A DNA stretch of 64,000 nt from Paremcibacter congregatus (GTDB taxonomy: Bacteria > Pseudomonadota > Alphaproteobacteria > Sphingomonadales > Emcibacteraceae): assembly GCF_006385135.1 (NCBI RefSeq), contig NZ_CP041025.1:434001-498000 (forward strand). The letters run 5' to 3'. This document shows positions 16,166-46,511 of this stretch, piece by piece. Every line of letters begins with the position of its first letter. The stretch's first letter is position 1. The notes under the pieces were generated by a model. That model did not search any database, had not been told where the DNA came from, and saw nothing but the letters and a program-made list of their open reading frames with translations. Made by a program: the position numbers and the translations under genes.

Positions 16166-16169
16166 GCTT

Positions 16170-16712: not shown

Positions 16713-16763
16713 GAGAAGAAGATGAAAAGTAAGAGAAGAAGATGAAAAGTAAGAGAAGAAGAT
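16704..16763. repeat. Three exact tandem copies of a 20-base unit
   Basis: The unit GAAAAGTAAGAGAAGAAGAT occurs three times head to tail (16704-16723, 16724-16743, 16744-16763). The first copy holds the stop of the acetyltransferase gene, and the last ends one base before the ATG of the dehydrogenase at 16765. Each copy contains the purine-rich AAGAGAAGAAG that can serve as ribosome-binding site, so the expansion lengthens the gap between the genes without changing their frames. Confidence 0.95.
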
Positions 16764-16764
16764 A

Positions 16765-18680: not shown

Positions 18681-18696
18681 AAAACCGGAGTATAAA

Positions 18697-19803: not shown

Positions 19804-19853
19804 ATTTTATAGCGTTTCAATAATTTTATCATTTCATTTGGAATATTTCGTTT

Positions 19854-22091: not shown

Positions 22092-23237
22092 ATGACTAAG
22101 CAGATTTGTACACGGTGTATTTATGATAATACTCTCCCTAATATTTCTTTTAATGAAAAAGGTGTGTGCAATTATTGTCATGAAATTGATGAATTAGCAG
22201 CCATATACCCCAATGGTGAAGAAGGCAGCATTGAACTCAAAAAAGTCATATCTAATATAAAAAAGGCCGGCAAAGGTAAGAAGTATGATGCTATTATTGG
22301 CGTTAGCGGTGGCTGCGATTCCTCTTACTTACTTCATTACCTAACAACCGAGCATAATTTGCGACTTCTTGCTGTTCATTTCGATAATACATACAATTCT
22401 ACAATTGCCACTGAAAATATCAATGCCCTGCTAAGCAAATTAAATATCGACTTATTTACCATTGTCGTTGACAACAATGAATACGATGACCTTCTATTAG
22501 CTCACTTGAAAGCCGGCGTTAAAGAAATTGACAACCCAACCGACGTTGGCCTTGCTGCTACGATGAATATTGCTGCAGCGAAATATGGCATTAAATATAA
22601 GATCGACGGACATTGCTTCAGAACAGAGGGCTCCGCGCCTACCGGATGGGTATATATTGACGGTAAATATGTTGCCAGTGTTCATGCCCAATTCGGTACA
22701 GGAAAATTAAAAACATTTCCCAATTTATGGTTATCAAAACAACTTAAATGGATGCTATTTAATCAAATCAAATCAATTCGGCCCTTATATTATCTGAATT
22801 ACAACAAAGAAGAAGCAAAACAAATGCTGACCGAAACCTATGGTTGGCAATGGTATGGTGGACACCACTTGGAGAACAGGACAGCAAGTTTTGTACATAG
22901 CTATTTCTTCCCAAAACGCTGGGGTATTGATTTTCGCATTGCCGGCTACTCGGCCTATTGTCGGGATGGACGCATGACCCGGCAAGAAGCTTTAGAGCTT
23001 ATGAAACAAGACCCACATATAGAAGACGGATTGTTGGACTATATGAAAACGAGGCTTAAATTAACGGATGAAGGTTTAGAAGCTCTTATGCGGCTTCCTA
23101 AAAAGGATTATACAGACTTCAAAACCTACAAGCGGACATTCGAAATTTTGAGGCCATTTTTCTATTTGATGGCAAAAATGGATCTTATTCCTATGAGTTT
23201 CTATTTAAAATATACGATTAAGCAAGATAAAGAATAA
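22092..23237 (+). CDS. N-acetyl sugar amidotransferase (WbpG/PseA-like)
   Basis: The 381-residue enzyme has an N-terminal four-cysteine site (CTRC at 6-9 and CNYC at 26-29) and a PP-loop ATP-pyrophosphatase motif VSGGCDSSY at 71-79, both typical of the N-acetyl sugar amidotransferase family. These enzymes adenylate an acetamido carbonyl and replace it with ammonia to give an acetamidino group. The HisH/HisF-like pair upstream would supply the ammonia. The likely target is the diacetamido uronic acid made by the WbpE/WbpD-like enzymes of the same locus. Length is normal. Confidence 0.88.
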   Translation: MTKQICTRCIYDNTLPNISFNEKGVCNYCHEIDELAAIYPNGEEGSIELKKVISNIKKAGKGKKYDAIIGVSGGCDSSYLLHYLTTEHNLRLLAVHFDNTYNSTIATENINALLSKLNIDLFTIVVDNNEYDDLLLAHLKAGVKEIDNPTDVGLAATMNIAAAKYGIKYKIDGHCFRTEGSAPTGWVYIDGKYVASVHAQFGTGKLKTFPNLWLSKQLKWMLFNQIKSIRPLYYLNYNKEEAKQMLTETYGWQWYGGHHLENRTASFVHSYFFPKRWGIDFRIAGYSAYCRDGRMTRQEALELMKQDPHIEDGLLDYMKTRLKLTDEGLEALMRLPKKDYTDFKTYKRTFEILRPFFYLMAKMDLIPMSFYLKYTIKQDKE

Positions 23238-23247
23238 TGAGATTTTC

Positions 23248-24165
23248 ATGAATCAAACCTCTCAGGTAAATACTCAAGAACCCACAAATGAGCTTAATTT
23301 AGCTGATATATGGATAATCTGCACTCGATATAAATTGATTATACTAATGGTCACTATTTTAGGGCTGTCCATTGGGGGTATAAGTGCCACCTTTTTGCCA
23401 ACATATTATGTGTCCGATATGCTCATAAAGCCACGAAGTGAAGATCGTTCAGGAATTCCTTCATCAGGATTAGCTAGCTTAGGTGCATTAACCGGGGGAC
23501 TCATTAACTCTGGCGGCGGGGAAAATGATGCATTACTAATGCATATCACATCACGTACTTTTATTCTTTCTTTTATAGAAAAGAACAACTTATCCGCTCA
23601 AATTTATGCTACTAAAGGTTGGGACCCTAAAACTTCGGAGCTCATTTTTGATACAGATATTTATGATCCCATTCACAAAAAATGGATAGACCATTCAGCT
23701 AAACCAAAGCCAATCATTGTATATAAAAAATTTATGAAAGACTTTTTTTCTATTCAGCCTGACATAAAAAATAATACCCTTATTTTACAGATCCAATATT
23801 ACGATCCCTCTCTGGCATATAAATGGCTTCAAGATTTATCTAAAGAGATTAACAATTATCTGAAAACACGCTCACAAATAACCACAAACAAACGATTGAG
23901 TTATTTGTATAAAACTCTTGACGCTACAAGTAATAATACGATGAAAAATCTTATTGGAGACCTGATCAAAGAACAGATGCGTAGCCTCATGATGACGAGT
24001 TTTAATGAAGGATTTGCTTTTGAGGTTATTGACCCTCCTATGCTAGCAAATAGACCGGCCAGCTCAAAAATACCTTTATTTATATTTTTGGGCGGAATTT
24101 TAGGCTTTATTACTGCCATATTTGGAGTGCTTTTTTTAAGCATGACTAGAAAAAAAATATCATGA
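23248..24165 (+). CDS. Wzz-like polysaccharide chain-length determinant
   Basis: The 305-residue protein has the Wzz topology: a short cytoplasmic N-terminus with LNLADIWIICTRYK, a first membrane span (LIILMVTILGLSIGGISATFL), a periplasmic domain of about 220 residues, and a second span preceded by a Pro-rich stretch (PASSKIPLFIFLGGILGFI). No C-terminal kinase domain is attached, so it is the polysaccharide co-polymerase type used for O-antigen. It precedes the polymerase gene by 22 bases. Confidence 0.85.
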   Translation: MNQTSQVNTQEPTNELNLADIWIICTRYKLIILMVTILGLSIGGISATFLPTYYVSDMLIKPRSEDRSGIPSSGLASLGALTGGLINSGGGENDALLMHITSRTFILSFIEKNNLSAQIYATKGWDPKTSELIFDTDIYDPIHKKWIDHSAKPKPIIVYKKFMKDFFSIQPDIKNNTLILQIQYYDPSLAYKWLQDLSKEINNYLKTRSQITTNKRLSYLYKTLDATSNNTMKNLIGDLIKEQMRSLMMTSFNEGFAFEVIDPPMLANRPASSKIPLFIFLGGILGFITAIFGVLFLSMTRKKIS

Positions 24166-25420: not shown

Positions 25421-25681
25421 TTAAGCGGCTATGGATTGCATAGCCAATTTTTGCATTGGCGTTATACCGCCGAGAGCCATATTGGGCCGTTCATTGTTAT
25501 ATGTCCAGAGCCATTTTGTCGTGGCGTCCTGCACCTCCTCAATTGTTTTAAAGATAAATTGGTTGAGCCAATGATATCTGACGGTGCGGTTATAGCGCTC
25601 CACATAAGCGTTTTGCTGCGGGTTCCCGGGCTGAATGAATCGAAGGCCGGTGCCCTGGTCCTCAGCCCATATGCCGAGCAA
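25421..25681 (-). pseudogene. IS3-family transposase OrfB, C-terminal fragment
   Basis: The 86-residue frame contains the end of an rve integrase core: QPGNPQQNAYVERYNRTVRYHWL with the third catalytic acid (E in AYVERYN), then WLWTYNNERPNMALGGITPMQKL. The first two catalytic acids are absent because the central part of orfB is deleted. Confidence 0.9.
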
Positions 25682-25866
25682 ATGGCTAATATATTCTGGA
25701 CACTACCAACTCAGTAACCAGTCCGCAATCAACATATTCTCATCATTTAGCTTGGGCTGATAGCGATAGCATGTCTAACTGATCATGAAGACATGGCACG
25801 CCGCCCTGATACTCAGCCGCCCCGCGCCAACAGCCCCCTTGGCCATCTTACGACGTTGGGACGGCC

Positions 25867-26133
25867 TTACCACTTTTTTGCCATGGCTTCCTTGATGACA
25901 TCATTCTGGAGTTGGACATTAGCATACATCTTCTTCAGACGGGTGTTTTCCGCCTCCAATTCCTTCATCCGGGTCATGAGCGACGCGTCCATGCCGCCGT
26001 ATTTGGCGCGCCATTTGTAAAAGGATGCACTGCTCATGCCGTGTTCACGGCAAAGTTCCGGTACCGGCGTACCGGCCTCGGCTTGCTTCAAAATACTGAT
26101 AATCTGACTGTCTGAATAGCGTGACTTCTTCAA
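25867..26133 (-). CDS. IS3-family transposase OrfA (intact frame in a defective element)
   Basis: The 88-residue product has the helix-turn-helix of IS3 OrfA proteins (SDSQIISILKQAEAGTPVPE, then CREHGMSSASFYKWRAKYGG) followed by a leucine-zipper-like helix (RMKELEAENTRLKKMYANVQL). The frame is complete, but the partner orfB is broken. The remnant at 14102-14554 is the same element type. Confidence 0.9.
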   Translation of the reverse strand: MKKSRYSDSQIISILKQAEAGTPVPELCREHGMSSASFYKWRAKYGGMDASLMTRMKELEAENTRLKKMYANVQLQNDVIKEAMAKKW

Positions 26134-26210
26134 GTAAAATCTCCTGCGTTATTGTCGCGAGAAAATTCTACCTCTGAATCCATCACCTTTATTTAACAGG
26201 AGTATTACCG

Positions 26211-26283
26211 GATGGCGATCAATATAGGTTTCTAGAACTTTAAAAGGCACCTCATTTAGTTCAAAAATTATTGTTTTTTGCAT
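26211..26283 (-). pseudogene. 5' remnant of a second phosphatase-like gene cut by the IS element
   Basis: Reading minus from the ATG at 26283, the sequence gives MQKTIIFELNEVPFKVLETY then IDRHP. This matches the start of the protein encoded at 36985 (MRKLVFFELNEVPFRVLNTY, VDRHP) position by position before the frame enters the IS element and stops. A good ribosome-binding site (AAGGAG, 7 bases before the ATG) is still present. The remainder of the gene is gone, so IS insertion plus deletion destroyed a paralogue of the 35558-36985 gene. Confidence 0.85.
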
Positions 26284-26368: not shown

Positions 26369-27637
26369 TTAGCTGCGCCTTGTAGCTCGCCAAAAAACCG
26401 CCCAACAGCCTAAAAGTGTAAGTGTAGCAGCAATCATTTGAGCAATAATAATTCCATAAATATCCCAAATAGGGAAAAATAAGTATCCCAAAATAATTCC
26501 CGTCGGTGTTGTAATAAGAGCTAAGTAGAACCCTTCTTTAAAACGCCCCAACCCAACCAAGGAAGCCCCCACAACAGCAAAACATGACCAAATTAAAAAG
26601 CGACCAGATATTCCTAATACAAAATCAGGTAACTCTGCATATTCCTCGCCAAGGTAATACCTCGTTAGCAGAATAGCCCCCCCATAAAGACCTGTTGCAA
26701 TAAATATGGAAAATATAAAACTCAGCAATTGATAGTAACATGTTTTTACCCACACCCACTCTTTATTGTCCTGACGTTCACTAATATAAGGCGACACAAT
26801 AGATTGTACAGTATTAACCACTACCATTCCCGCTTGTAAAAAGAGGATTGAATATGAATATACGCCTAATCGGTCATCCGGCACCTTCAGAAAATCAAGT
26901 AAATATAAGTCCGCATATTGTCCGATTGTTGTAACCACTACACCAAAAAATGTGAAATAGGCATAATGATTTATTTGATCCTTTCTGTTGGTTTCTCCGA
27001 CACCTTCAAATATTGCAAGTGGGATAAATAGAGCAAAAGGAAAAATGCCCACAAAATAAGAAATAATAGTCGAAAGTACAAAACCAATAAATCCAAAAAA
27101 ATATGTAGCTAGTATAATTAAAAATAAAAAAGTAAGTCGTACAATTACTTGCGCTTTTGCAACATCTTTAATTCTTTTCTGCGACTGCAGGTAAGCAGTT
27201 AAACAATATACAATTGCCGCAAAAGGGATAACAACCCCATAAATCGGCATCCATTGACCAAGAACTTCATTCACGCCCCGTATATAGAAAAAATTAACTA
27301 CTAAGAGGCTGACATAGGAAATAATTGAAAAGAAAAATGTACGGTATAGACAATATTTAAAGACTTCCGCCTTCTCTTCTCGTGTAATATTTTCAGCACA
27401 TACCTTCAATAACGCAACATTATAGCCAAAGGTACCAATTAAGATAAAAAGTACGCTATAAGATTGTAATAAGCGCGCATTTCCAATTTCACTTGGGCTC
27501 AGAACAGATGGCAAGAAAAGTATTACCCCAAAACCTAAGAATTGGACTGCAAAGTTAGAGGATAATAGGTGAAAAAAACCTTTATCGGACACAGAGCGTG
27601 TAATATTTTTCATTCGGGCAACGTTAGGAGATTTCAT
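26369..27637 (-). CDS. Wzx-like polysaccharide flippase
   Basis: The 422-residue protein has about twelve membrane spans in the pattern of the MATE-like polysaccharide exporters (start KGFFHLLSSNFAVQFLGFGVILFLPSVL, then many hydrophobic blocks separated by short basic loops). It should flip the lipid-linked repeat unit across the inner membrane for Wzy polymerisation. It overlaps the upstream glycosyltransferase gene by 14 bases, so the two are translated together. Sequence identity within this family is low; the call rests on topology and context. Confidence 0.82.
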   Translation of the reverse strand: MKSPNVARMKNITRSVSDKGFFHLLSSNFAVQFLGFGVILFLPSVLSPSEIGNARLLQSYSVLFILIGTFGYNVALLKVCAENITREEKAEVFKYCLYRTFFFSIISYVSLLVVNFFYIRGVNEVLGQWMPIYGVVIPFAAIVYCLTAYLQSQKRIKDVAKAQVIVRLTFLFLIILATYFFGFIGFVLSTIISYFVGIFPFALFIPLAIFEGVGETNRKDQINHYAYFTFFGVVVTTIGQYADLYLLDFLKVPDDRLGVYSYSILFLQAGMVVVNTVQSIVSPYISERQDNKEWVWVKTCYYQLLSFIFSIFIATGLYGGAILLTRYYLGEEYAELPDFVLGISGRFLIWSCFAVVGASLVGLGRFKEGFYLALITTPTGIILGYLFFPIWDIYGIIIAQMIAATLTLLGCWAVFWRATRRS

Positions 27638-28673
27638 TATATATGCCTATCAAGTCGTCACAAACGACCAATAGGTCATGGTACTTCTCAACATATGATC
27701 TACTCGCCAAACCTATCTCATGCCGCATTGAATGTGACATAATTAGCCCCCTCATAACGTCATAAATAGTTTCAGGGTTAGCATTCACGATCGGAAGCTC
27801 CTTCGGAAACTTATCGACTAAATCTTCTCGTATATAAGTAATGGTTGGTTTACCACTCGCCATTGTCTCAACAGCTGTCACCCCATGTGATCCACATTTC
27901 AGCTCATCAATATAGACATCACAATGTTGGATTTCATTATAAACTTCCTGCTGAGTCAACTGTCGTTTCAATCTAAACTCAAAATGGAATCCATCCTCTT
28001 TTAATTGCTTCACAGCTGCAACGATTTCCTCAGTTCCCTTCACCTTTGGTTCTGTCGGAATATGAAGAAAAATAGGGTAATCATTTTCTTTAGCAGGCAC
28101 ATTGCAAGTTATTTCTGTAAGGTCTACAGGCTGTCGAAAGGGAAATATTTTTTCGAAATATGGCATTGCATAATCAGTCATTTCTGGATCTGTAGCGGCG
28201 TATTTAATATTTTTAGACCATGAAAAATATCTAGCCGAAATAATAAAGTCTTTTACTATATTGGGTTCCTTATAAAAAAACCTATTTTTGTTATTCGCAA
28301 TTTTTAGAGGCCTAGCATCTCCACCACCAAAGGACAACAGCATAGGAATCTCCGCACGTGTAAACTTTCTGCCCTCATATAACCAATGCAATTCTCGGTA
28401 GAAAATATTAGAACTATGATAATGAATGAGACTACACTCAGTCGTTGCTTTTTCAATAAAATCGACAATTGTTTTGAATTTATGAAATTTTCCCGAGTTC
28501 ACGTCACACAAAGCTTCGTCATATGGTAATTTTCGATTAAGATCATGAACATCTCTATCATGTAAAATGATATTCTTACTTGCTACCCCTTTTTTCCGCA
28601 GCCCTTTCGCTATCTTGTATGGCCACCCAGCTAAACTACCATATTGCAATATGTATTTTTCTTGTTTATTCAT
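27624..28673 (-). CDS. GT-B-fold glycosyltransferase
   Basis: The product (349 residues from the ATG at 28673, which has AAGG 6 bases upstream; the frame extends to a TTG at 28697) reads as a glycosyltransferase. The C-terminal nucleotide-sugar motif is GSHGVTAVETMASGKPTITY, the E-x7-E-like region of GT4 enzymes, and HIPTEPKVKGTEEIVAAV is the inter-domain K-x-T region. The N-terminal half (ILQYGSLAGWPYKIAKGLRKKG) is the acceptor side. Donor and acceptor cannot be deduced. Confidence 0.75.
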   Translation of the reverse strand: MNKQEKYILQYGSLAGWPYKIAKGLRKKGVASKNIILHDRDVHDLNRKLPYDEALCDVNSGKFHKFKTIVDFIEKATTECSLIHYHSSNIFYRELHWLYEGRKFTRAEIPMLLSFGGGDARPLKIANNKNRFFYKEPNIVKDFIISARYFSWSKNIKYAATDPEMTDYAMPYFEKIFPFRQPVDLTEITCNVPAKENDYPIFLHIPTEPKVKGTEEIVAAVKQLKEDGFHFEFRLKRQLTQQEVYNEIQHCDVYIDELKCGSHGVTAVETMASGKPTITYIREDLVDKFPKELPIVNANPETIYDVMRGLIMSHSMRHEIGLASRSYVEKYHDLLVVCDDLIGIYNEIS

Positions 28674-28798
28674 TTTGACCTTAATTTTATAATTCAAACC
28701 TTAACTATACCGAATATACTGTTATCAATTCTAAATCATAACTAAAAATTTTCATATTGCATGCTTTCACTCTCATGTATATTAATTTTTTTATTATA

Positions 28799-28942: not shown

Positions 28943-30253
28943 ATGAAAGTTAAGGTATTTATTAAGAATACAGTATCTCAGATGCCATACAGCATCGGGA
29001 AAGTTTTTACTCACATCCCCTTTTCATGGCGACTAGGTAACAGCTATACCTCAACACAAAATAGCATCCATAAATTCAATGCCCTGTCAGATGACGAACG
29101 GGCTTCTTATCTAGTCACTAAGCTAAATAGGATTATTAAACATGCCACTAGTTCATTTGATTTTTATACAAAACTTTATGATAAGCATAACCTTTTGGGG
29201 ACTTCCCTAAAGTATCTTGATGATTTCAAACAATTCCCAATTATCACTAAAGAATTACTTAGGACACATATTGATCAATTCAATGGCGCATTAACAATGA
29301 ACACTGGGGGGACTACCGGAGAGCCTTTTAGTTTCTTTCTAGACAAGCAAGCATTCTCCAGGGAGTGGGCGCATATGCACTACATCTGGAAAAATAAAAA
29401 TTATGTAAAGACCGATATTAAAATTACGTTACGCGGAAAAAATCTTGGAAATAAAAATATTATATACAACCCAGTTCACAACGAGTTTATAATTAATACC
29501 TATAAGAGCATTAAATCCTTTAAAGGTGAGATATTACATCTAATTCAAAAGCATAAAATAAAATTTGTGCATGGTTACCCCTCTGCAATTTATGAGTTTT
29601 TTAAGGAACTAGATACAATCACTAGCTATGAAGAAAAGGTCATTATAAAGAACAACCTTCAATGCTGTTTTCTTGGCTCAGAATTCCCCGTACAATATAT
29701 GGTGAATTATCTAAAGACAACATGGAATCTTGATTATATATCTTGGTATGGGCATAGTGAAATGGCAATTTTAGCCGTTGATAAAGAAAAGAGTAATATA
29801 TATTCTCCTTTTATGACATATGGTTATGCAGAAATAGATTGCGGCAAGTTAATCGGAACTTCATACAATAATTTTGACATGCCAATGATACGTTATGATA
29901 CTGGAGATAAGGCTGAGGGGACTTCTGACAAAAATGGTATTCTAAAGAATTTTTCCATAACGGAGGGTCGTGAAGGAGACTATATTATTGACAAAGGGGG
30001 CAAAAAAATTCCTCTCACAGCACTCGTTTTTGGGCGACATCATAGAATATTTGATAAGGCTGACTTTATTCAAGTCGGCCAGGAAGAAAATGGTTTCGTC
30101 ATTTTTTATGTTACCTTCAAGAGTCCACATGATATAGATGAAGATAATTTGGGACATTACTTCGATCTAAGTAATGTAGATATAAACTTTAAATTCAAAA
30201 TTATTAATAGTCCAATTCGGTCCACAATGGGGAAAATAAGATTAAAAATATAA
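28943..30253 (+). CDS. CapK/PaaK-like adenylate-forming enzyme
   Basis: The 436-residue protein resembles the phenylacetate-CoA ligase-like proteins found in capsule loci (CapK family). It has the phosphate-binding loop MNTGGTTGEPFSFFLD around residues 118-133, a second motif WYGHSEMAILA, and MIRYDTGDKAEG near the C-terminal hinge. These belong to the ANL adenylating superfamily, so activation of a carboxylic acid by AMP is expected. In polysaccharide loci the acid could be an amino acid or acyl group attached to a sugar, but the substrate is unknown. Confidence 0.78.
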   Translation: MKVKVFIKNTVSQMPYSIGKVFTHIPFSWRLGNSYTSTQNSIHKFNALSDDERASYLVTKLNRIIKHATSSFDFYTKLYDKHNLLGTSLKYLDDFKQFPIITKELLRTHIDQFNGALTMNTGGTTGEPFSFFLDKQAFSREWAHMHYIWKNKNYVKTDIKITLRGKNLGNKNIIYNPVHNEFIINTYKSIKSFKGEILHLIQKHKIKFVHGYPSAIYEFFKELDTITSYEEKVIIKNNLQCCFLGSEFPVQYMVNYLKTTWNLDYISWYGHSEMAILAVDKEKSNIYSPFMTYGYAEIDCGKLIGTSYNNFDMPMIRYDTGDKAEGTSDKNGILKNFSITEGREGDYIIDKGGKKIPLTALVFGRHHRIFDKADFIQVGQEENGFVIFYVTFKSPHDIDEDNLGHYFDLSNVDINFKFKIINSPIRSTMGKIRLKI

Positions 30254-30520
30254 TTATCTGCTGTATTTCAAAGCCATCTAGATAAATGTACCCCCCCTAT
30301 TTCTAACGCTACAATATTTTGAACAATCAATAAATCAGCCCGAAGGCGACAAAAAAGCTTCGTAATAAGGAATATTCTATCCTACATTCATTCGTTCAAA
30401 TACCTTTGTAAATCCACTTTTACGATTGAGAGTTTAATAGTATTTCCCGAATTATAATGTTACTACCTATTCATTTACAATCATCTGAGTTAATACTAAA
30501 AAGTTAAAAGACATAAATTT

Positions 30521-32656
30521 ATGAAACAAGTTCTCCAAGATCTCGCCAAGGGTACCTCAATCATCGCCGATGTCCCTCGCCCTCGTTGTAAAAAAGGACA
30601 TGTTCTTATTCAAACAGCTCAGTCCCTCATCTCAGCGGGTACTGAACGCATGCTTGTTGATTTTGGACGCTCTAGTTATATTGAAAAAGCCCGCCAACAG
30701 CCTGAAAAAGTAAAGATGGTTTTAGATAAAGTAAAGGCTGATGGTTTGCTTCCCACAATTGATGCCGTCAAGTCAAAATTAAACCAACCTCTGCCTATGG
30801 GTTATTCGAATGTGGGTACGGTGATAGAAATAGGAACTGGTGTTTCAAATTTCAAAATTGGTGACCGAGTTCTCTCAAATGGGCACCATGCAGAAGTGGT
30901 CTGTGTGCCTAAAAACCTTTGCGCAAAAATTCCCGATACAGTATCGGATGAAGAGGCAGTATTCACTGTTGTTGGTGCTATTGGTCTACAGGGTATTCGC
31001 TTAGCTAATCCGACACTTGGTGAATGTTTTATTGTCACAGGACTTGGTCTCATTGGTTTAATGGTTGTGCAAATTCTTCGCGCCAATGGCTGCCGTGTTC
31101 TTGGCCTAGATTTTGATCCGGCAAAGCTTGAACTAGCGCGCCAATATGGTGCTGAAACCGTGAACTTGGCGGAAATTCAAGACCCTATTTCCACAGCAGA
31201 TGCATTTTCACGCGGACGTGGTGTCGATGGTGTGATCATAACAGCATCCACAAAAAGTAATGAACCAATGCATCAAGCAGCCACCATGTGCCGTAAAAAA
31301 GGCCGTGTGGTATTGGTTGGCGTTGTTGGCTTAGAACTTCAACGCTCTGATTTTTTTGAAAAAGAAATTTCTTTCCATGTTTCTTGTTCCTATGGCCCCG
31401 GTCGATATGATTCTAGTTACGAGGACCACGGTAATGATTATCCTGTTGGATATGTCAGGTGGACAGAACAACGAAACTTTGAAGCAATCCTTGACATGAT
31501 GGCCATCGGTGCTATCGACACGGACGACTTAAGAACCAAAACATTCGAGATTGAAAATGCGCCCAAGGCCTATGACCTACTGATGGCAGAGAAAGGGGCT
31601 CTTGGTGTTCTCTTATCTTATAAGGCTGATATTAAAGCTAGTGCCACACGGACTCTGGCCATTGGTGAAAATACTTCCAATACATCAGAGCAAGTCATTA
31701 TAGGTGCAATTGGTGCTGGCAATTATGCAGGTCGTATTCTTCTACCTGCCTTTAAGAGAACCGGCGCAAGACTAAAAACAATTGCAACCTCCCAAGGCGT
31801 TTCAGGTACACATCATGGCAAAAAATTGGGGTTTGAATTCAACACAACAAATAGTAATGAAATGCTAGCGGATCGTGAAGTTAATACCATTGTTATTGGC
31901 ACGCAACATAGTACGCATTCTCACTTTGTGGAACAAGCACTAGCTGCAGGTAAGAATGTATTTGTTGAAAAACCACTCGCCCTTACAAACAAACAACTTG
32001 ATAAGATCGATGAAGCCTATCGAGCGGCTTATGACCGAGGAGAGAATCCTAAGTTAATGGTCGGCTTTAATCGCCGTTACGCTCCACTTATGCAAAAACT
32101 CAAAAAGCAAGTTGAGAAATCCACTGACCCCATGAGCATTATGTATACGTGCAATGCTGGAGCAATTCCTGCTGATACATGGGTTCAAGATTCAGAAGCT
32201 GGAGGCGGCCGTATTATTGGCGAAGCCTGCCACTTCATCGATATTGTCCGCTTCTTGTGCGGTTGTCCTATAGTTGATATTCAGGCAGCTTCCATGAAAA
32301 TGCCTGAAGGCGTTACTGATTGCCATGACACAGCATCTATCATGCTCCGTTTTAAAAATGGCTCTCTTGCCACTATTCACTATTTTGCCAATGGTCATCA
32401 ATCTTTTCCAAAAGAAAGAATTGAAGTATTCCAAAACGGAAACATAATGATTCTTAATAACTTCCGACGCTTAACAGGCTTTGGCAACAAGTCGATTAAC
32501 TGTAAAACCTTTAAACAAAATAAGGGACAACAGGAATGCTGCAATAACTTCGTAGAAAGTCTAAGAAATGGAGAGAACACACCTATTCCTTATGAAGAAA
32601 TTATGGAGGTATCACGTGTCGCGATCAAGGCTTGGGACCAATTATTGGTACAATAA
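30521..32656 (+). CDS. Two-domain oxidoreductase: zinc-less alcohol dehydrogenase fold fused to Gfo/Idh/MocA
   Basis: The 711-residue protein joins two dehydrogenase modules. Residues 1-370 are a medium-chain dehydrogenase fold (GYSNVGTVIEIGTGVSNFKIGDRVL, Rossmann TGLGLIGLMVVQILRANGC). Residues 385-711 are a Gfo/Idh module (IGAIGAGNYAGRILLPAF, FVEKPLALTNKQL, IGEACHFIDIVRFL). Such fusions recur in bacterial polysaccharide loci next to heparinase-like genes, as here. A role in making or modifying an unusual sugar by paired oxidation and reduction is plausible but unproven. Confidence 0.85.
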   Translation: MKQVLQDLAKGTSIIADVPRPRCKKGHVLIQTAQSLISAGTERMLVDFGRSSYIEKARQQPEKVKMVLDKVKADGLLPTIDAVKSKLNQPLPMGYSNVGTVIEIGTGVSNFKIGDRVLSNGHHAEVVCVPKNLCAKIPDTVSDEEAVFTVVGAIGLQGIRLANPTLGECFIVTGLGLIGLMVVQILRANGCRVLGLDFDPAKLELARQYGAETVNLAEIQDPISTADAFSRGRGVDGVIITASTKSNEPMHQAATMCRKKGRVVLVGVVGLELQRSDFFEKEISFHVSCSYGPGRYDSSYEDHGNDYPVGYVRWTEQRNFEAILDMMAIGAIDTDDLRTKTFEIENAPKAYDLLMAEKGALGVLLSYKADIKASATRTLAIGENTSNTSEQVIIGAIGAGNYAGRILLPAFKRTGARLKTIATSQGVSGTHHGKKLGFEFNTTNSNEMLADREVNTIVIGTQHSTHSHFVEQALAAGKNVFVEKPLALTNKQLDKIDEAYRAAYDRGENPKLMVGFNRRYAPLMQKLKKQVEKSTDPMSIMYTCNAGAIPADTWVQDSEAGGGRIIGEACHFIDIVRFLCGCPIVDIQAASMKMPEGVTDCHDTASIMLRFKNGSLATIHYFANGHQSFPKERIEVFQNGNIMILNNFRRLTGFGNKSINCKTFKQNKGQQECCNNFVESLRNGENTPIPYEEIMEVSRVAIKAWDQLLVQ

Positions 32657-32669
32657 TGACAACCGGTAA

Positions 32670-34265
32670 ATGAAAAAATTAAAGAAAGCAGGCCTTTACT
32701 GGCGGACATTACGCCATTTAAAAGCTATCCAAATAACCAACCGGATTAAGCGCAAGCTATTTCCGGTAAAAATTAATAATTCAACCGCGCTCAGTTTGCG
32801 GGGCCTTTCAGTCGATAGTTTTTATGCGATACCAAGGTCCAAATCTATTTTATGGACAGATACATTTCTATTTCTCAACAAAAAAGAAAAACTGACATTC
32901 CCAAGCGGATGGAATGATCAATCTTTATCAAAGCTATGGCTTTATAATCTTCATTACTTTGAAGGACTTATGAATAAGAAAACAACTGTTGAACTTAAGC
33001 AACAGTTGATTGAGCAATGGATTGCTGAAAACCCAATAGAGCATGGAAATGGTTGGGAGCCATATCCAATTAGCCTTAGGATAACCAACTGGATAAAGTG
33101 GGCTCTTAGTGGAAACACCTTATCTCAAAATGCCCTTCATAGTCTGGCTGTTCAAACACGGTACTTAATGAAAACCATTGAATTTCACCTTCTTGGGAAT
33201 CATCTTTTTGCTAATGCTAAAGCTCTAGTTTTTGCGGGGATTTTTTTTAAAGGACCCGAACCAGAAAGGTGGCTTTCAAGAGGACTTAAAATTTTAGAAG
33301 AGCAAATTCCCGAACAATTTCTTGACGATGGCGGCCATTTTGAACTGAGTACAACTTACCAGGCCCTTTTGGTTGAAGATTTACTTGATATTCTATATCT
33401 GCTCCAGGTGGGGGAGCGGGGCATTCCGGAAGAATGGAAATATAAAGCTAAAAAAGCTGTTGAATGGCTTGTGATCATGACGAGGCCAGATGGATTGCCC
33501 CCACTCTTTAATGATTCAGCTTACGGAATTACACCTTCGTTACAGGATATAACATCTCTGAGCTCATCTGTTGGGCTTGAAGTAGCCAAAAATTTTCCAG
33601 ATGGGCTGACGGATCTGCCTAATAGTGGTTATTTCAGGTATGAGACTGGAAAATACGCCTTCTTTGGGGACGCGGGGCAGGTGGGGCCGGATTACATCCC
33701 TGGGCATGCCCACTGTGATATGGCCAACTATGAACTATTTGCGGCTGATCAACCGATTATTGTTGATACTGGTGTCAGCACATACGAGAATTCTGCAAGG
33801 CGCCACTTGGAAAGGTCAACAGTTTCTCATAATACCGTTCAGATTGCGGGTGAAGAGCAAAGTGAAATCTGGGGCGCGTTCCGGATTGGCAGGCGGGCAA
33901 AAATCAAAAAGCGAGTAGTTATCGGAGATAAAGCCACTGTTTCTTATGTTGGTTATGGTCACTCAAGGTATGAGCACCAAAGAACTTTCTCCTTCGAGCC
34001 CAGTAAAATTTTAATATCGGATGAAATTTTCTGCAAACGCCTAATGGCTGGGGCGTCCATTTCTCGCATACATTTTCATCCGAATGTTGACGTTGAGGTC
34101 AGAGAAAACACCGTCCAAGCAGGCCCTTTGTTGATAAGATTTGAAGGTGCAAAAAGAATTGATTTAACAAGATACTGTTACGCTCCAGAATTTAATACAC
34201 TCGTCTCTGCTCATGTGATTGAGATCGCTTTTGATACAAACTTGGAAACCACAATTACATTATGA
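32670..34265 (+). CDS. Heparinase II/III-like protein, probably cytoplasmic
   Basis: The 531-residue protein has the (alpha/alpha) toroid N-terminal part (WLYNLHYFEGLMNK, GNGWEPYPISLRITNWIKW, LGNHLFANAKALVFAG) and the beta-sandwich C-terminal part with HAHCDMANYELFAADQPIIVDTG and SHNTVQIAGEEQSE, which carries the typical catalytic-domain His residues. There is no signal peptide (it begins MKKLKKAGLYWRTLRHLK), unlike degradative lyases, so a role in polymer synthesis or proofreading is possible. It lies 13 bases after the two-domain oxidoreductase and overlaps the next glycosyltransferase by 4 bases. Confidence 0.85.
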   Translation: MKKLKKAGLYWRTLRHLKAIQITNRIKRKLFPVKINNSTALSLRGLSVDSFYAIPRSKSILWTDTFLFLNKKEKLTFPSGWNDQSLSKLWLYNLHYFEGLMNKKTTVELKQQLIEQWIAENPIEHGNGWEPYPISLRITNWIKWALSGNTLSQNALHSLAVQTRYLMKTIEFHLLGNHLFANAKALVFAGIFFKGPEPERWLSRGLKILEEQIPEQFLDDGGHFELSTTYQALLVEDLLDILYLLQVGERGIPEEWKYKAKKAVEWLVIMTRPDGLPPLFNDSAYGITPSLQDITSLSSSVGLEVAKNFPDGLTDLPNSGYFRYETGKYAFFGDAGQVGPDYIPGHAHCDMANYELFAADQPIIVDTGVSTYENSARRHLERSTVSHNTVQIAGEEQSEIWGAFRIGRRAKIKKRVVIGDKATVSYVGYGHSRYEHQRTFSFEPSKILISDEIFCKRLMAGASISRIHFHPNVDVEVRENTVQAGPLLIRFEGAKRIDLTRYCYAPEFNTLVSAHVIEIAFDTNLETTITL

Positions 34266-35497
34266 ATATTCTCTTCCTTTCCGATAATTTTCCGCCCGAA
34301 GGTAATGCCCCTGCGACAAGGTTGTTTGAACATGCGACCCGCTGGATTGAAAAGGGCCACCAAGTGACTGTTATCACTTGCGTGCCAAATTTCCCAGAGG
34401 GCAAGGTTTTTGAGGGATATAAAAACCGGTTGTATCAGGTCGAAATGATGTCGGGCATCAAAGTCGTGCGGGTCAAGACATATATTACTGCAAACGAAGG
34501 TTTTCTCAAAAGGACGCTGGATTATATCTCCTTTATGTTTATGGGTTTCTTTGCAGGCCTGTTCCAGAAAAGGCCGGATATTATTGTGGCCACGTCGCCA
34601 CAGTTCTTTTGCGCGATAGGCGGGTGGATGTTATCGGTGGTGCGCCGAAGGCCTTTTATCTTTGAATTGCGTGATTTATGGCCAGCGTCGATCAAGGCTG
34701 TTGGCGCAATGGAAGACAGTCTGTTGATCCGGGTTTTTGAAAGAATAGAACTGTTCCTCTATCACAGATCGGATCGGATCATTTCTGTCACACATGCCTT
34801 TAAAAAGGAACTCGTTGAAAGAGGGGTTTTGGCCGAGAAAATAGATGTTATTACCAATGGTGTAGATCTGACTAAATATGCACCAGCAGATGAAAAAGAT
34901 CCGGAGTTGGCTGAGCAATATAACCTTAAGGACAAGTTTGTCGTGGGTTATGTCGGCACTCATGGCATGGCCCACGCTTTGGATAAGGTTGTGGATACCG
35001 CCGAACTCCTACAACATGAGAAAGATATTGTCATCCTCTTCGCTGGGGGCGGCGCGGCGCGTACCGCTATCGAGGAGCAGGTTGCGGCAAAGAAACTCAA
35101 AAATGTTTGCTTGATCCCTAGGCAGCCAAAGGAGATGATGCCGAGGCTTTGGAGCCTGTGTGACGTTTCTTTGATCCATTTGAAAAATAACCCTGTATTT
35201 AAAACTGTCATTCCCTCAAAACTTTTTGAATCCATGGGTATGGGCTTGCCTGTCCTCGTTGGTGTGCCGGAGGGAGAGATTACGGGTATTGTGGAAAAAT
35301 GTGACTGTGGAATCAACATTGAACCAGAAAACGCACAGCAGATGTCGCAAGCCATTTTAGATTTGTATAGGAACCCTGGTTTGATGGCGAACTATCGGAA
35401 AAACAGTTTAAGTTGCGCCCCCAAATATTCCCGAGAAGCACTCGCGCATGACATGCTGATCTCTTTTGAGGCAGCATTAGAGGGAAGTGTTGAGTAA
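34262..35497 (+). CDS. Glycosyltransferase family 4 (WbuB-like)
   Basis: The 411-residue enzyme starts MNILFLSDNFPPEGNAPATR, typical of WbuB-type enzymes, with ELRDLWPASI in the middle, the hinge VITNGVDLTKY and VGYVGTHGMAHALD, and the donor-binding PSKLFESMGMGLPVLVGVPEGE (E-x7-E type). WbuB-type enzymes often add an N-acetylated deoxy sugar such as FucNAc, but the donor here is open. The ATGA overlap with the heparinase-like gene indicates coupling. GC content is visibly higher than in the core of the locus. Confidence 0.87.
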   Translation: MNILFLSDNFPPEGNAPATRLFEHATRWIEKGHQVTVITCVPNFPEGKVFEGYKNRLYQVEMMSGIKVVRVKTYITANEGFLKRTLDYISFMFMGFFAGLFQKRPDIIVATSPQFFCAIGGWMLSVVRRRPFIFELRDLWPASIKAVGAMEDSLLIRVFERIELFLYHRSDRIISVTHAFKKELVERGVLAEKIDVITNGVDLTKYAPADEKDPELAEQYNLKDKFVVGYVGTHGMAHALDKVVDTAELLQHEKDIVILFAGGGAARTAIEEQVAAKKLKNVCLIPRQPKEMMPRLWSLCDVSLIHLKNNPVFKTVIPSKLFESMGMGLPVLVGVPEGEITGIVEKCDCGINIEPENAQQMSQAILDLYRNPGLMANYRKNSLSCAPKYSREALAHDMLISFEAALEGSVE

Positions 35498-35557: not shown

Positions 35558-36985
35558 TCACGGAGTTTGGCGGTTAATCAGGCTAGATGATAACTTCTTC
35601 ATGTATTCTGGGACGGAGACATCAAAGTGTGAAAGCACTGCAGGGGCAATTTCGCGGGTGTCGATTTCTGTTTGAATATTTTGTTTATTCATATTTTTTG
35701 GATCATAGCTGATCCACATACCTGTTGGTATATGGTATCCTGATGACCCTGATTGGTCTTCGATAACAGTATTTTCCAAACCGGCTTCTTCCAATGTAAA
35801 TTTTTGATTTCCTATCTCTACGTAGGCCATATCATCCGTAACATTTTCCATGCCGAAATGAAACATATGGTAGTCGTTGGCCCGCTCTTCGTGTCGAACA
35901 GGTTGGCCTGCGACTTTTAGAGTCGAGGAAAGTTGCCGTATAAGTTCTGATTTTTGAGGAGTTGTAATAAATGCAAAGCGTGGCAACATGACGCGACGCC
36001 GTTGCCACTCATCGGGTTCCACATTCAGTTTTTGCAGGAAAGTCTCGGCATCCTTAATATATATTTGACGAGCGATAGATTTCCCTAGGTTTGCACCTTG
36101 CCCCATGCTTGTGGTTAAAACGATTGTATATTCAGGATTCTTATGGGCAAATATCATAAGCTTTTCGAGCATATCATCTGCTTGTGTCATTGCAAAATCG
36201 ATTTCATCAGCATAGGTTCTTACCCAGTCTGGATCAAAATCATTTTGTTTAAAGTCTTCGGCATAACTTGAAGCCCAGTAGCGGTGCATACTTGATGCAA
36301 CATGATTGGAGAAAAATGTTGTATACTGTGGCTTTTTACTCTTTAGCTGTTGAAAGAAAACATCAAATGCTAAAACACCTTGCAAGATACGCCGACGGCC
36401 TTTTCGGATGGGATTCTGACGTTCAGCAATCAATTGCCCGATAATCTTTTTTGCCGTACTAAGCGTGAAACCGAGTTTTAACAAATGAGGCAAGAGTGCA
36501 ATAGCCTTGCCGCCAGAGATGCCAGTCGATACGTTTCTTGCTGATTTATCAACCATGTTTAGATTGAAGTCTTGGAATTTGGCTACTTCAGGAGGGAAGC
36601 CTTGTGCATCACTTGCAAAAGTGTCAGGTAAGAAGAAATCATATTGTGAAAGGTCTGCGGGCATGGGCCAACTATTCAAGGAGCCTCCAATTCCAATCCG
36701 CACGCCTTGATTGGCAAGAATTTTCCATAAGGGGGGAAATTCAATGTCAACATCCTCTAAGTTTTGGCTTAGATTGGTTAGCATATGCTTTTCTGTATCC
36801 ACACCGCGGTGCACAGTGGCCCAAGTACACCACGGATGTAGCCATTTTGAATCTGGTGATACTGTTTTCGCGATAGTAGATTTTTGTAAAAGCTTACTGA
36901 ATGCCGAGTCTGGATGACGATCTACATAAGTATTCAATACTCTAAATGGCACTTCATTTAATTCGAAAAATACTAATTTTCTCAT
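35558..36985 (-). CDS. Alkaline-phosphatase-superfamily-like protein of unknown function
   Basis: The 475-residue protein resembles type I phosphodiesterase/phosphatase-fold proteins seen in polysaccharide loci. Near the N-terminus FFELNEVPFRVL takes the place of the first metal-binding strand, and HPWCTWATVHRGVDTEKH around residues 50-67 corresponds to the catalytic threonine block. The segment TIVLTTSMGQGANLGKS sits where active members have SDHG, so the Asp-His metal ligands appear missing. HYHMFHFGMENV near residue 375 could supply a metal ligand. No signal peptide is seen. It may be degenerate, non-enzymatic or a distinct subtype. A cut paralogue lies at 26211-26283. Confidence 0.65.
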   Translation of the reverse strand: MRKLVFFELNEVPFRVLNTYVDRHPDSAFSKLLQKSTIAKTVSPDSKWLHPWCTWATVHRGVDTEKHMLTNLSQNLEDVDIEFPPLWKILANQGVRIGIGGSLNSWPMPADLSQYDFFLPDTFASDAQGFPPEVAKFQDFNLNMVDKSARNVSTGISGGKAIALLPHLLKLGFTLSTAKKIIGQLIAERQNPIRKGRRRILQGVLAFDVFFQQLKSKKPQYTTFFSNHVASSMHRYWASSYAEDFKQNDFDPDWVRTYADEIDFAMTQADDMLEKLMIFAHKNPEYTIVLTTSMGQGANLGKSIARQIYIKDAETFLQKLNVEPDEWQRRRVMLPRFAFITTPQKSELIRQLSSTLKVAGQPVRHEERANDYHMFHFGMENVTDDMAYVEIGNQKFTLEEAGLENTVIEDQSGSSGYHIPTGMWISYDPKNMNKQNIQTEIDTREIAPAVLSHFDVSVPEYMKKLSSSLINRQTP

Positions 36986-37346: not shown

Positions 37347-38545
37347 TTAAAGTAAGAGCTTCATCTCTAAAGGGGGGGGGGCAGGGCTTGGGCGGTCTTG
37401 CAAGTTCGTTATTTTTGTACTTTCAGGTCGCGGTATCATTATAGACCTATTCGTCAAATTAAACACCGCCAGCATGCTCTCCCGTTTATACGTCCGCACA
37501 AAGGCCAAGGTGCCGTCCGGGCTGTCGAGGAATTTGATATCGCCGTGCAATAGAGCCGGGTGGGATTTGCGCCAGCTTAGAAAATTCTTAAAGGCATTCA
37601 GCACCGAGTTCAGATCTCTTTCCTGCGCCTCTACGCTTATGGCCAGATGATCTGTCGGCACCGGTAGCCATGGGACGGCGTCACTGAAGCCCGCATGGGG
37701 GGCGTCAGCCGTCCAGGGCATAGGCGTGCGACATCCGTCGCGGCCCTTGAAGTCGGGCCAGAATCTGATGCCGAAAGGATCTTGAAGGTCCGCGTGGGCA
37801 ATATTCGCTTCGTTCAGGCCGAGTTCCTCGTCTTGATAGGTATACATATCGTGCCCGGTAGGCTGCAGAGCAGGGCGGTCAGCATCTTGGCCATCCCCGG
37901 CGACGGATTGTCGCCGCCCCACCGGCTCAAGACCCGTTTGACATCATGATTACTGATCGCCCAGCAGGGTTGAGCGCCATTCAGGTGAGCCATCTGTTGC
38001 TCCACCGTTTCACGGATATGGCGGGCGGAAAAATCATCCACCAACAGCTCAAAACTATAGCCCATATGCAGGCGTTTGTTGTCGGCGGTATAGTCGGCGA
38101 TGGATTTGAGCGAATCCTCTGTATTGATCTCGCCCACCTATAGACATCACGCCGGGATAGCGGTCGAGGAGCGCGCGCAGCTCTTCGAGGAAGGCCAGCG
38201 TCTCCGGCCGGTCATTGCCATAGACATGACATTGCGCGGCATAAGGATTATCGGGACTGAAGCCGCGGCCGCGGCGTTCCGCCATGGGTTTTGCGGGATT
38301 GTCGCGCAGTTCGGCGTCATGGTAACAGAAATTGATCGCGTCAAGGCGAAAACCATCGACGCCACGCTTCAGCCAAAATTCGACTTCCTGCAGGATCTGG
38401 GCGCCGCCATCGGCGCGGGCGTCGGCCCAGACGTACCAGTCGGCCTTGGCATTTTCACGACCCTGACGGCTTTCCTGAAACCAGGCGTGCTGGTCGGAGG
38501 TGTGGCTGAGCACCTGATCAATGACCACTTTCAGGCCGCCGCCAC
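37347..38545 (-). pseudogene. Decayed GH13 alpha-glucosidase (truncated, frameshifted, internal deletion)
   Basis: Three minus-strand frames together spell an oligo-1,6-/alpha-glucosidase. 38545-38055 gives KVVIDQVLSHTSDQHAWF, then WADARADGG joined directly to AQILQEVEFWLKRGVDGFRLD (about 40 residues of the barrel deleted), ending NDRPETLAFLEELRALLDRYPG. 38137-37814 gives GEINTEDSLKSIADYTADNK and WAISNHDVKRVLSRWGGDN. 37922-37347 gives TYQDEELGLNEANIAHADL, CRTPMPWTADAPHAGFSD. At least two frameshifts separate them, the N-terminal 100 or so residues are missing, and the 5' end is fused to the 3' end of lacI-1. A run of ten G lies at 37372-37381. It cannot give a working enzyme. Confidence 0.9.
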
Positions 38546-39853: not shown

Positions 39854-41416
39854 ATGGAATTAGCGAATCTGGATATCGGGGTTTTTGTTGTTTATGTGGT
39901 TGGTCTTATCGGGCTGGCCTATTGGGTGTCGCGTGAAAAGCCGGGCCACGAGAAAAATGCGGAGGATTATTTTCTCGCTGGCAAGTCTTTGCCCTGGTGG
40001 GCGATCGGGGCGTCGTTGATTGCGGCCAATATTTCCGCCGAACAGATCATCGGCATGTCCGGGTCGGGTTATGCCATCGGTCTTGCGATTGCGTCTTACG
40101 AATGGATGGCGGCGATCACCCTGATCATTGTCGGGAAATATTTCCTGCCGATCTTCCTGAAAAACGGCATCTATACCATGCCGCAGTTTTTGGAACAGCG
40201 CTATGACCATCGGGTACGCACCATCATGGCGATCTTCTGGCTTGGCGTATATGTCTTTGTCAACCTGACGGCCATTCTGTGGCTCGGCGCCTTGGCCATC
40301 CATACGGTGACGGGCGTTGATTTGATGTATGGCCTGTTGTTCCTCGGCGCGTTCGCCGCCGCTTATTCTCTCTACGGCGGGCTGAAGGCCGTGGCCTTTA
40401 CCGACATTATTCAGGTGGTGTTGCTGGTGTTCGGCGGGTTGTTCCTGTCCTATGTCACCCTGGATGCGATCGGGGCCGGAGAAGGCATCATTGCCGGTTT
40501 TGCGGAACTGACCGCCCAGGCGCCGGAAAAATTCGACATGATCCTGAGCAAGGATAACCCGCATTATGCCAGCCTGCCGGGCCTCAGTGTCCTGATTGGT
40601 GGCATGTGGATCATGAATCTGTCCTATTGGGGCTTTAACCAATATATCATTCAGCGCGCCCTGGCGGCGAAGAACCTGGGGGAAGCCCAAAAGGGGATTT
40701 GCTTTGCCGCGTTCCTTAAGCTTCTGATGCCGGTGATTGTGGTGTTGCCCGGGATTGCCGCCGTGGTGTTGGCGCCTGACCTGGCGTCGCCGGATCAGGC
40801 CTATCCCGAACTGATGAAGATGATGCCGGTGGGCATGAAAGGGCTGGTTTTTGCCGCGTTGGTGGCGGCGATTGTCTCCTCGCTTGGGTCAATGACCAAC
40901 AGTATTTCAACGATCTTCACCATGGATATTTACAGCTACTACCAGAAGAACCGCAGTCAGGCGCATTATGTGTTTATCGGCCGTCTGGTGAGCTTCTCTT
41001 CACTGGTGATCGCCATGATCTGCGCCAAGCCGTTGCTCGGCCAGTTCGATCAGGCGTTTCAGTATATTCAGGAATTTACCGGCTTTTTCACCCCGGGCAT
41101 CGTGGTGATCTTCCTGCTGGGGATGTTCTGGAACCGGACGACAGCTCACGGGGCGCTGACTGCCGCGATTGGCTCTGCGGTGCTGTCCTTTGCCCTGAAA
41201 ATGTTGTGGCCGTCGTTGCCCTTCATTGATCGGGTGGGGATTGTCTTCCTCAGTTGTTTGGCGCTGGGTATTATCGTCACCCTGATGGAGAAACGCGGCG
41301 TGCAGAAGAATGCGGTCGATCTGGAGGGTATCGATTTTACCACCGGCCGGTCTTACAATATATCCACCATCGCGGTGGTGCTGATCCTGACGGCGCTTTA
41401 CGCCACCTGGTGGTAA
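39854..41416 (+). CDS. Sodium/solute symporter of the SGLT type (probable glucose or galactose uptake)
   Basis: The 520-residue protein has about fourteen membrane spans and matches the SSS family, sugar branch: DYFLAGKSLPWWAIGASLIAANISAEQ near the N-terminus, GIYTMPQFLEQRYDHRVRT, AAYSLYGGLKAVAFTDIIQ, and AALVAAIVSSLGSMTNSISTIFTMD with the Na2-site serines. vSGLT is the model for these features. It should bring a hexose across the inner membrane with Na+. It diverges from lacI-1 and precedes the first Entner-Doudoroff operon, with a terminator between them. Confidence 0.92.
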   Translation: MELANLDIGVFVVYVVGLIGLAYWVSREKPGHEKNAEDYFLAGKSLPWWAIGASLIAANISAEQIIGMSGSGYAIGLAIASYEWMAAITLIIVGKYFLPIFLKNGIYTMPQFLEQRYDHRVRTIMAIFWLGVYVFVNLTAILWLGALAIHTVTGVDLMYGLLFLGAFAAAYSLYGGLKAVAFTDIIQVVLLVFGGLFLSYVTLDAIGAGEGIIAGFAELTAQAPEKFDMILSKDNPHYASLPGLSVLIGGMWIMNLSYWGFNQYIIQRALAAKNLGEAQKGICFAAFLKLLMPVIVVLPGIAAVVLAPDLASPDQAYPELMKMMPVGMKGLVFAALVAAIVSSLGSMTNSISTIFTMDIYSYYQKNRSQAHYVFIGRLVSFSSLVIAMICAKPLLGQFDQAFQYIQEFTGFFTPGIVVIFLLGMFWNRTTAHGALTAAIGSAVLSFALKMLWPSLPFIDRVGIVFLSCLALGIIVTLMEKRGVQKNAVDLEGIDFTTGRSYNISTIAVVLILTALYATWW

Positions 41417-41465
41417 GGCGTGGGTGGATCAATGTTAAATTTATGGATGTGAATTAGTCCAACTT

Positions 41466-41515
41466 CAGGGGTGTTGTCCTCACGAAACTGTTGCAACACC
41501 CCTGACTTTTTTTTT
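41466..41515 (+). terminator. Rho-independent terminator after the symporter
   Basis: CAGGGGTGTTG (41466-41476) pairs exactly with CAACACCCCTG (41494-41504) across a 17-base loop and is followed by nine T. It separates the symporter from zwf-1. Confidence 0.88.
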
Positions 41516-41571
41516 GAATAACCTGTTAAACTATATGTGAATGAGATTTTCCGGATGGGAAAGAAAATAAA

Positions 41572-43014: not shown

Positions 43015-43015
43015 G

Positions 43016-43714: not shown

Positions 43715-43725
43715 AGGACTTTGAC

Positions 43726-46493: not shown

Positions 46494-46511
46494 CCAGAAA
46501 AGAGACCCCTT

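Follow-up and report, generated by a model that had tools for sequence, protein, structure and literature searches.

A recurring cassette of oxidoreductase, heparinase-like protein and glycosyltransferase in polysaccharide loci, with a tentatively proposed C5 epimerase of amino-uronic acids

The origin of the L-configured amino-uronic acids in bacterial polymers is only partly known. Among described enzymes, those of family PL12 are typically exported with a signal peptide, lyases of the AlgL type are periplasmic and part of export machines, and the mannuronan epimerases AlgG and AlgE are right-handed parallel beta-helices. Here we describe four genes, all on the + strand, in a 64,000-nucleotide stretch of the genome of Paremcibacter congregatus (contig NZ_CP041025.1, positions 434,001 to 498,000; hereafter the window, with positions counted from its first letter): a CapK/PaaK-like adenylate-forming protein of the ANL superfamily (CapK, 436 amino acids (aa), 28943-30253), an oxidoreductase joining a medium-chain dehydrogenase/reductase or alcohol dehydrogenase (ADH)-like N-terminal half to a Gfo/Idh/MocA C-terminal half (BiDom, 711 aa, 30521-32656), a heparinase-like protein of PL12 fold without a signal (Hep, 531 aa, 32670-34265) and a family 4 glycosyltransferase of the WcaI type (GT4, 411 aa, 34262-35497). 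The earlier note on this sequence had placed the four genes one after the other with the last two overlapping, and the open reading frames (ORFs) confirm this: Hep and GT4 overlap by 4 bases, 13 bases separate BiDom from Hep, and 267 bases separate CapK from BiDom. BiDom, Hep and GT4 are a cassette that recurs beyond chance, and CapK is an occasional member with a fixed place in it. For Hep we propose a role as cytoplasmic uronate C5 epimerase acting on N-acetylhexosaminuronic acid (HexNAcA) in lipid-linked repeat units, with BiDom-Hep-GT4 as the module for that residue, to which we give a little under an even chance. We rank it ahead of an editing lyase and, in third place, of another step through a C5 carbanion. 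No paper on the cassette was found among open-licence PMC papers. Its parts are known families; what is new is their combination and the cell compartment.

Recurrence was measured in several samples. Named genomes were scanned with the Hep alignment and the best 80 of 473 confirmed stretches were retained; many are metagenome-assembled genomes, and by their titles they span alpha-, beta- and gammaproteobacteria, desulfobacteria, Planctomycetes, Spirochaetes, Nitrospirae and others. Neighbours were counted in the 48 loci whose flanks reach 4.5 kb or more upstream and 2 kb or more downstream, the 32 with short flanks being set aside. Of these 48 loci, 42 have BiDom no farther than 5 kb from Hep, 44 have a GT4 match no more than 300 bases from Hep, and 41 have both. 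Within the window's class (289 genomes, its own included), Hep matches at E<=1e-20 occur in 37 genomes, BiDom matches at E<=1e-50 in 15, which may be an undercount as at most three candidates were scored per genome, and both in 11 (Fisher p 3.4e-8); seven of the shared genomes have BiDom and Hep no more than 1.2 kb apart on the same contig, and four have them on different contigs. Among 118 Vibrio genomes, eight carry Hep, with BiDom directly upstream in six; the remaining two loci have wecC (one of them wecB as well) and no BiDom in the stretch read. The pairwise distances of Hep also correlate with those of GT4 (r 0.60), BiDom (0.44) and wecB (0.40), each with 0 of 2000 permutations and no species-tree correction, the wecB-wecC pair giving 0.71 as a yardstick. 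A length filter applied before the Hep and BiDom alignments removed 11 of the 77 ORFs of Hep and 4 of the 56 of BiDom.

The idea that four unrelated polysaccharide genes have been brought side by side by shuffling is contradicted for BiDom, Hep and GT4 by this recurrence, which extends over several phyla, and is possible for CapK, which matches in only 3 of the 80 named loci. The G+C content of CapK (0.338) resembles that of the adjoining Wzy-like, Wzx and glycosyltransferase genes (0.33-0.365) and differs from that of BiDom (0.43), Hep (0.415) and GT4 (0.464). For the set as a whole we regard shuffling as very unlikely. The count of co-occurrence among the four families, as the earlier note had suggested, came out above chance for three of them, CapK being a rare neighbour, and the picture of four genes as one standard set is not supported. 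Other neighbours in the 48 loci include asnB-like genes (17), WbpG (9) and HisF (8), the counts for wecB, wecC and asnB coming from a single BLAST clustering that took in ORFs 150 aa or longer. A phosphoesterase-like gene just past GT4 (35558-36985) was considered as a further part of the cassette and rejected, with no tblastn match at E<=1e-8 among the 80 loci. On plasmids of Haloarcula and Halobellus (L191, L193) Hep stands right behind GT4, so that this pair extends to the Archaea. One Vibrio locus (L181, 8994-13451) holds two different heparinase-like genes together with wecB and wecC and no BiDom.

Hep matches the Pfam families Hepar_II_III_N and Hepar_II_III_C (E 2.7e-42), and its AlphaFold2 model, computed from 67 sequences (predicted local distance difference test score, pLDDT, 92.6), combines an (alpha/alpha) toroid with an antiparallel beta-sandwich. 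This is the PL12 heparinase III-like fold, and the beta-helix of AlgG and AlgE is not matched. Structure comparison (Foldseek, VIA-align) returned heparinase III (Z 26.7-29.2) and a PL39 alginate lyase (Z 26.9), then PL17, PL35 and PL33 lyases, heparinase II and human dermatan-sulfate epimerase 1 (6hzn; Z 21.4, root-mean-square deviation 4.0, 447 residues aligned). PL12 heparinase III (HepC, 4mmh/4mmi; BT4657, 5jmd) shares the fold over residues 36-531 of the model and the same Asn/Tyr/His residues, but Hep is only 17-18% identical to it, has no signal peptide and lies in biosynthetic loci; its scores against the NCBIfam HepC models (59.2 of 600 and 47.4 of 700 bits) are far below the cut-offs. 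Dermatan-sulfate epimerase 1 has the same two-domain fold and performs C5 chemistry on the uronate of a growing glycan, but it is eukaryotic and 13% identical to Hep, whose own activity is predicted only. In a phmmer alignment N177, Y230 and H346 of Hep correspond to chain residues 216, 270 and 400 of Pedobacter HepC, which a constant shift of 24 turns into Asn240, Tyr294 and His424, listed in Table 4 of PMC12088678 as the neutraliser (Asn240) and the acid/base pair (Tyr294/His424). The three residues do not vary among the 67 aligned Hep sequences. In the named set 76 of 83 ORFs have them, and the remaining seven are short ORFs without the Asn region; all five plasmid and Escherichia coli ORFs have them too. 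In one named locus (L058) a stop falls inside the Hep match. PMC11848413 argues that such a fold, with its apparatus, is able to abstract protons from D- as well as L-uronates and that dermatan-sulfate epimerase 1 shares it; Tyr261 of this epimerase is stated there to be orthologous to the PL33 tyrosine.

Since the nearest relatives of Hep by sequence and by fold are lyases and the lyase residue set is conserved in it, Hep may be a true editing lyase, which would cleave uronate-linked lipid-linked oligosaccharides or stray polymer by beta-elimination and so trim or clear wrong intermediates. Such an enzyme would destroy the product in the very compartment of its assembly, which is an argument and not a result, and the close, co-directional GT4 and BiDom genes suggest a building step; we consider this explanation unlikely. 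The earlier note had envisaged a biosynthetic or editing role, epimerising or trimming a uronic acid intermediate. The retained PL12 residues, the biosynthetic loci and the amino-uronic acid supply genes nearby fit such a role.

The same note had judged Hep to be signal-less and cytoplasmic in appearance, and our check for export agrees. Judged by hydropathy (15-residue Kyte-Doolittle means, with ORFs read back to the preceding stop), none of the 80 named loci has a signal-like N-terminus in Hep, the highest mean being 1.48, and in the window the stop-to-stop frame is no longer than the 531-aa ORF. The protein begins instead with a basic stretch (residues 1-36; 32670-32777, + strand) containing 12 lysines or arginines and no aspartate or glutamate, modelled as helices 2-16 and 19-30. 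The second helix is amphipathic (hydrophobic moment 0.69), while the first has a moment of 0.36, a value that 15% of Hep 15-mers reach; contact of this N-terminus with the membrane surface is possible. Because AlgL-type lyases sit in export machines, Hep might be thought to leave the cytoplasm by an unrecognised route and degrade polymer at its release, as periplasmic AlgL does. The lack of any signal-like stretch, the basic N-terminus found in its place and the overlap of the ORF with GT4 make this extremely unlikely, and it is the least probable of the explanations weighed here. A second heparinase-like gene of the same genome (580 aa, at 508-2250 of the region 4123983-4127708) matches Hepar_II_III_C only and by eye has no signal.

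The epimerase that we prefer would work as follows. Enzymes of the WecB/WecC or TviB type would supply UDP-HexNAcA, which a glycosyltransferase would place on an undecaprenyl-linked repeat unit within a Wzx/Wzy-type assembly. The basic N-terminal helices would keep Hep at the inner face of the membrane, where its Tyr/His pair would abstract the proton at C5 of the uronate, with Asn neutralising the carboxylate, and reprotonation from the other face would give the C5 epimer, for example L-GulNAcA (N-acetylgulosaminuronic acid) from D-ManNAcA (N-acetylmannosaminuronic acid). The adjacent GT4 would then extend the epimerised residue and Wzx would export the unit. BiDom would carry out an additional redox step on this sugar, and CapK, where present, would convert the uronate carboxylate to an adenylate for amidation. 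If this is true, Hep is a lyase-fold enzyme on the building side and a cytoplasmic counterpart of the human dermatan-sulfate epimerase, which could make L-amino-uronates in other polymers; its current labels, 'alginate lyase family' and 'heparinase', which imply breakdown, would then call for a warning in annotation. A wider claim would make Hep the first of a widespread class of C5 epimerases of PL12 fold, cytoplasmic and at the membrane edge, in Pseudomonadota, Bacteroidota and haloarchaea, converting D- to L-HexNAcA on lipid-linked repeat units before export, with CapK-like proteins of some Hep loci and of vps clusters as the missing ligases that join amino acids such as glycine to the uronate carboxyl; this claim we hold to be doubtful.

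The common thread of the Hep loci is an N-acetylated uronic acid: within the flanks examined wecB lies near Hep in 30 of the 48 loci and wecC in 16. Outside the window, its genome has one full nucleotide-sugar dehydrogenase, nearest to TviB and below the cut-off of the TviB model, as well as two WecB-type genes that exceed theirs. At the DNA level Hep is present in 9 of 5426 complete E. coli genomes, on a plasmid in five and on the chromosome in four, and in two opened of the four matching chromosomes the order is galF-wecB-wecC-GT-GT-...-Hep-GT4-cpsG-gnd. The conjugative IncC plasmid pCRE10.2 of E. coli (L121, 2604-15054) carries wecB-wecC-...-Hep-GT4 between IS26 copies, and the Citrobacter locus opened reads wecB-wecC...Hep-GT4 without BiDom, which is likewise not annotated in the E. 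coli stretches opened. In PLSDB (Hep at E<=1e-40, WecC at E<=1e-60, with incomplete gene tables) Hep was found in 15 records, which by organism and identity are seven distinct loci, one record of each being opened. A nucleotide-sugar dehydrogenase is listed near Hep in five of the seven (E. coli, Citrobacter, Sulfitobacter, Haladaptatus and Parabacteroides) and none in the Haloarcula and Halobellus loci, against a WecC background of 83 in 72,556 plasmids; Hep adjoins GT4 in five, the exceptions being Haladaptatus and Parabacteroides, the latter with BiDom-Hep-wecC-wecB in a row. Plasmids of Enterobacter hormaechei have the same wecC and Hep as pCRE10.2.

A number of observations weigh against the proposed epimerase and its module. 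The fold and active-site residues of Hep are common to lyases, and lyase and epimerase are not separable from them. Three Vibrio Hep proteins adjoining BiDom have a proline aligned at position 346, and 12 of 21 Hep rows from the class sample lack the residue set; these rows may belong to another subfamily or reflect a failed alignment, and the distant class-sample proteins, at about 25% identity and in several cases beside a WbpL-like gene, were kept out of our claims. BiDom has no match in 26 of the 37 Hep-positive class genomes, and neither the Hep-asnB distances (104 of 2000 permutations) nor those of BiDom and wecC (343 of 2000) track each other. Within the flanks examined 18 of the 48 loci have no wecB and 32 no wecC, and the cluster of the window itself has neither. 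No polymer solved from a BiDom-Hep locus was found. The vps-type clusters of Vibrio, a type whose polymer in V. cholerae contains GulNAcA, have wecB and wecC in four of four and Hep in none (hmmsearch --max, best E 1.5); inversion at C5 thus apparently can proceed without Hep, and GulNAcA seems not to need it.

BiDom matches the Pfam domains ADH_zinc_N and GFO_IDH_MocA and has two separate nucleotide-binding domains. Across 53 relatives there is no invariant cysteine in the ADH half. The two nucleotide-binding domains and the lack of an invariant cysteine would be in keeping with inversion of a ring carbon without net redox change, which is perhaps what BiDom performs. Its two redox domains would also suit an enzyme consecutive to Hep in one pathway, with Hep taking some other step through a C5 carbanion, for instance an elimination giving a 4,5-unsaturated uronate, which BiDom would reduce to an unusual sugar. 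The presence of BiDom within 5 kb of Hep in most named loci, and of both in 11 of the 15 BiDom-positive class genomes, speaks for such a pair. However, the Hep loci opened in E. coli and Citrobacter show no BiDom in the stretch read, nor do two of the eight in Vibrio, and BiDom stands without a Hep match in 4 of the 15 class genomes (E<=1e-20) and on five of the six plasmids that carry it (E<=1e-40), so that we rate this step as more unlikely still than the editing lyase. At least three of the six BiDom plasmids also have WecC (Sphingobium AntQ-1, Parabacteroides and Streptomyces HUAS 15-9), two of these being without a Hep match, and on the Streptomyces plasmid WecC directly adjoins BiDom.

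Members of the ANL superfamily have a P-loop, an RYxTGD motif and a C-terminal GK. An alignment inspected by eye finds all of these in CapK, as TGGTTG (P-loop), RYDTGD and GKIR. The best NCBIfam model, DVU_1553 (E 1.9e-14), gives 53.5 of 300 bits, below the cut-off; no Pfam family, AMP-binding included, is found at E<=0.001 and no NCBIfam equivalog over its cut-off. Against the phenylacetate-CoA ligase 9s3l the E value is 1.6e-7. CapK was rejected as a core member of the cassette: a search of the other 288 genomes of the class with the window protein gave no relative at E<=1e-10. Its profile matches three of the 80 named loci (L037, L060, L091) and one of the eight Vibrio Hep loci (L175); it was built from the very loci matched, and the rest of the 80 gave it no match. 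CapK immediately precedes BiDom on the same strand in each of the four loci and in the window, the exception to this order being a Sulfitobacter plasmid (L122) with a CapK-like ORF before wecB-Hep-GT4 and no BiDom listed.

The polysaccharide VPS of Vibrio cholerae offers a comparison for both CapK and Hep. As described in PMC3901696, VPS contains GulNAcA, most probably of L configuration and amidated with glycine, and its authors infer that D-ManNAcA is inverted at C5, with no enzyme proven for this step; in a 2015 review (PMC4432689) the glycine-adding enzyme is given as unknown. VpsF occurs in 4 of 50 Vibrio genomes, and their vps-type clusters (L187-L190) were read; that these strains make the same polymer as V. 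cholerae is an assumption. The four clusters share wecB-wecC and a CapK-like gene with the Hep loci; they differ in having no Hep and, among blastp best hits, no BiDom. A CapK-like gene in four of four such clusters, taken with the glycine amide of VPS, points to the CapK-like enzymes of such loci as uronate carboxyl-amide ligases, which we offer as a lead and not a proof, and the CapK-like genes of the vps clusters are candidates for the glycine-adding enzyme, making that question testable. Two precedents for Hep itself were set aside: the vps clusters as a Hep-positive benchmark with known GulNAcA, since they are without Hep, and the route to L-AltNAcA (N-acetyl-altrosaminuronic acid) in Plesiomonas O17, for which PMC9723277 and PMC6467956 name WbgZ, the word 'lyase' being absent from both main texts. 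A VpsF family search of the class sample gave 8 of 289 genomes, seven over the cut-off, and the seven regions, by their G+C and gene content not from Vibrio, contain one Hep (L155, with wecC) and no BiDom. LuxQ, too, had only weak matches in this sample, as expected if Vibrio is absent from it. Amidotransferases of the WbpS/AsnB type, which in O-antigen loci would form the carboxamide of a uronic acid, are an enzyme class other than CapK, and asnB-like genes are those counted above near Hep.

The surroundings of the cassette are a Wzx/Wzy-type polysaccharide locus. On the + strand, profile searches identify at 15044-20474 a DegT protein, a hexapeptide acetyltransferase, a UDP-GlcNAc 3-dehydrogenase-like Gfo protein, LegB/RmlB-like and LegC-like DegT proteins and HisH, followed over the cut-offs by an AglZ/HisF2 acetamidino-modification protein (20475-21254) and a WbuX/WbpG-type N-acetyl sugar amidotransferase (22092-23237), and then, weakly and below the cut-off, by a Wzz-like chain-length protein (23248-24165). 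The ORF at 24188, for which a Pfam search gave no family, may be Wzy. On the - strand lie a Wzx-type flippase (26369-27637; Pfam Polysacc_synt) and a probable glycosyltransferase (27624-28697; Glycos_transf_1, below the cut-off). WbpG, HisH and HisF are shared with the acetamidino-sugar wbp loci of the Pseudomonas aeruginosa type and occur immediately upstream of BiDom in a number of other loci, in some of which the adjoining gene is of the AglZ/HisF2 type; the PAO1 wbp locus is not known to contain BiDom or Hep. GT4 itself is assigned to the WcaI family by NCBIfam (E 7.8e-55, 186 of 276 bits), in addition to its Pfam match. Scans of the window for promoters and terminators gave no signal above the chance level.

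What looks like the remnant of an IS3-type insertion sequence, with a whole orfA-like ORF and a fragmented orfB by translations read by eye, occupies 25421-26133 (- strand), between the Wzy-like gene and wzx. Next to it, at 26149-26283 (- strand), is the beginning of a second copy (FELNEVPF...TYIDRHP) of a 475-aa gene, whose full copy lies just past GT4 at 35558-36985 (- strand). For this gene neither Pfam nor NCBIfam gave a family at E<=0.001, and 'phosphoesterase-like' is our own reading of it. The ORF at 37347-37922 (- strand) covers no more of an alpha-amylase catalytic domain than its C-terminal portion (profile positions 346-446) and is possibly a pseudogene. The polysaccharide locus is adjoined at 39854-47075 (+ strand) by an Entner-Doudoroff set consisting of an SSF symporter, glucose-6-phosphate dehydrogenase, Edd, glucokinase and Eda. 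On the same contig, 4-8 kb beyond the window (502328-506221), NeuB-like and NeuC-like genes are found with, by eye, a second HisF-like ORF; together with the LegB-like and LegC-like genes of the window they suggest a nonulosonate pathway.

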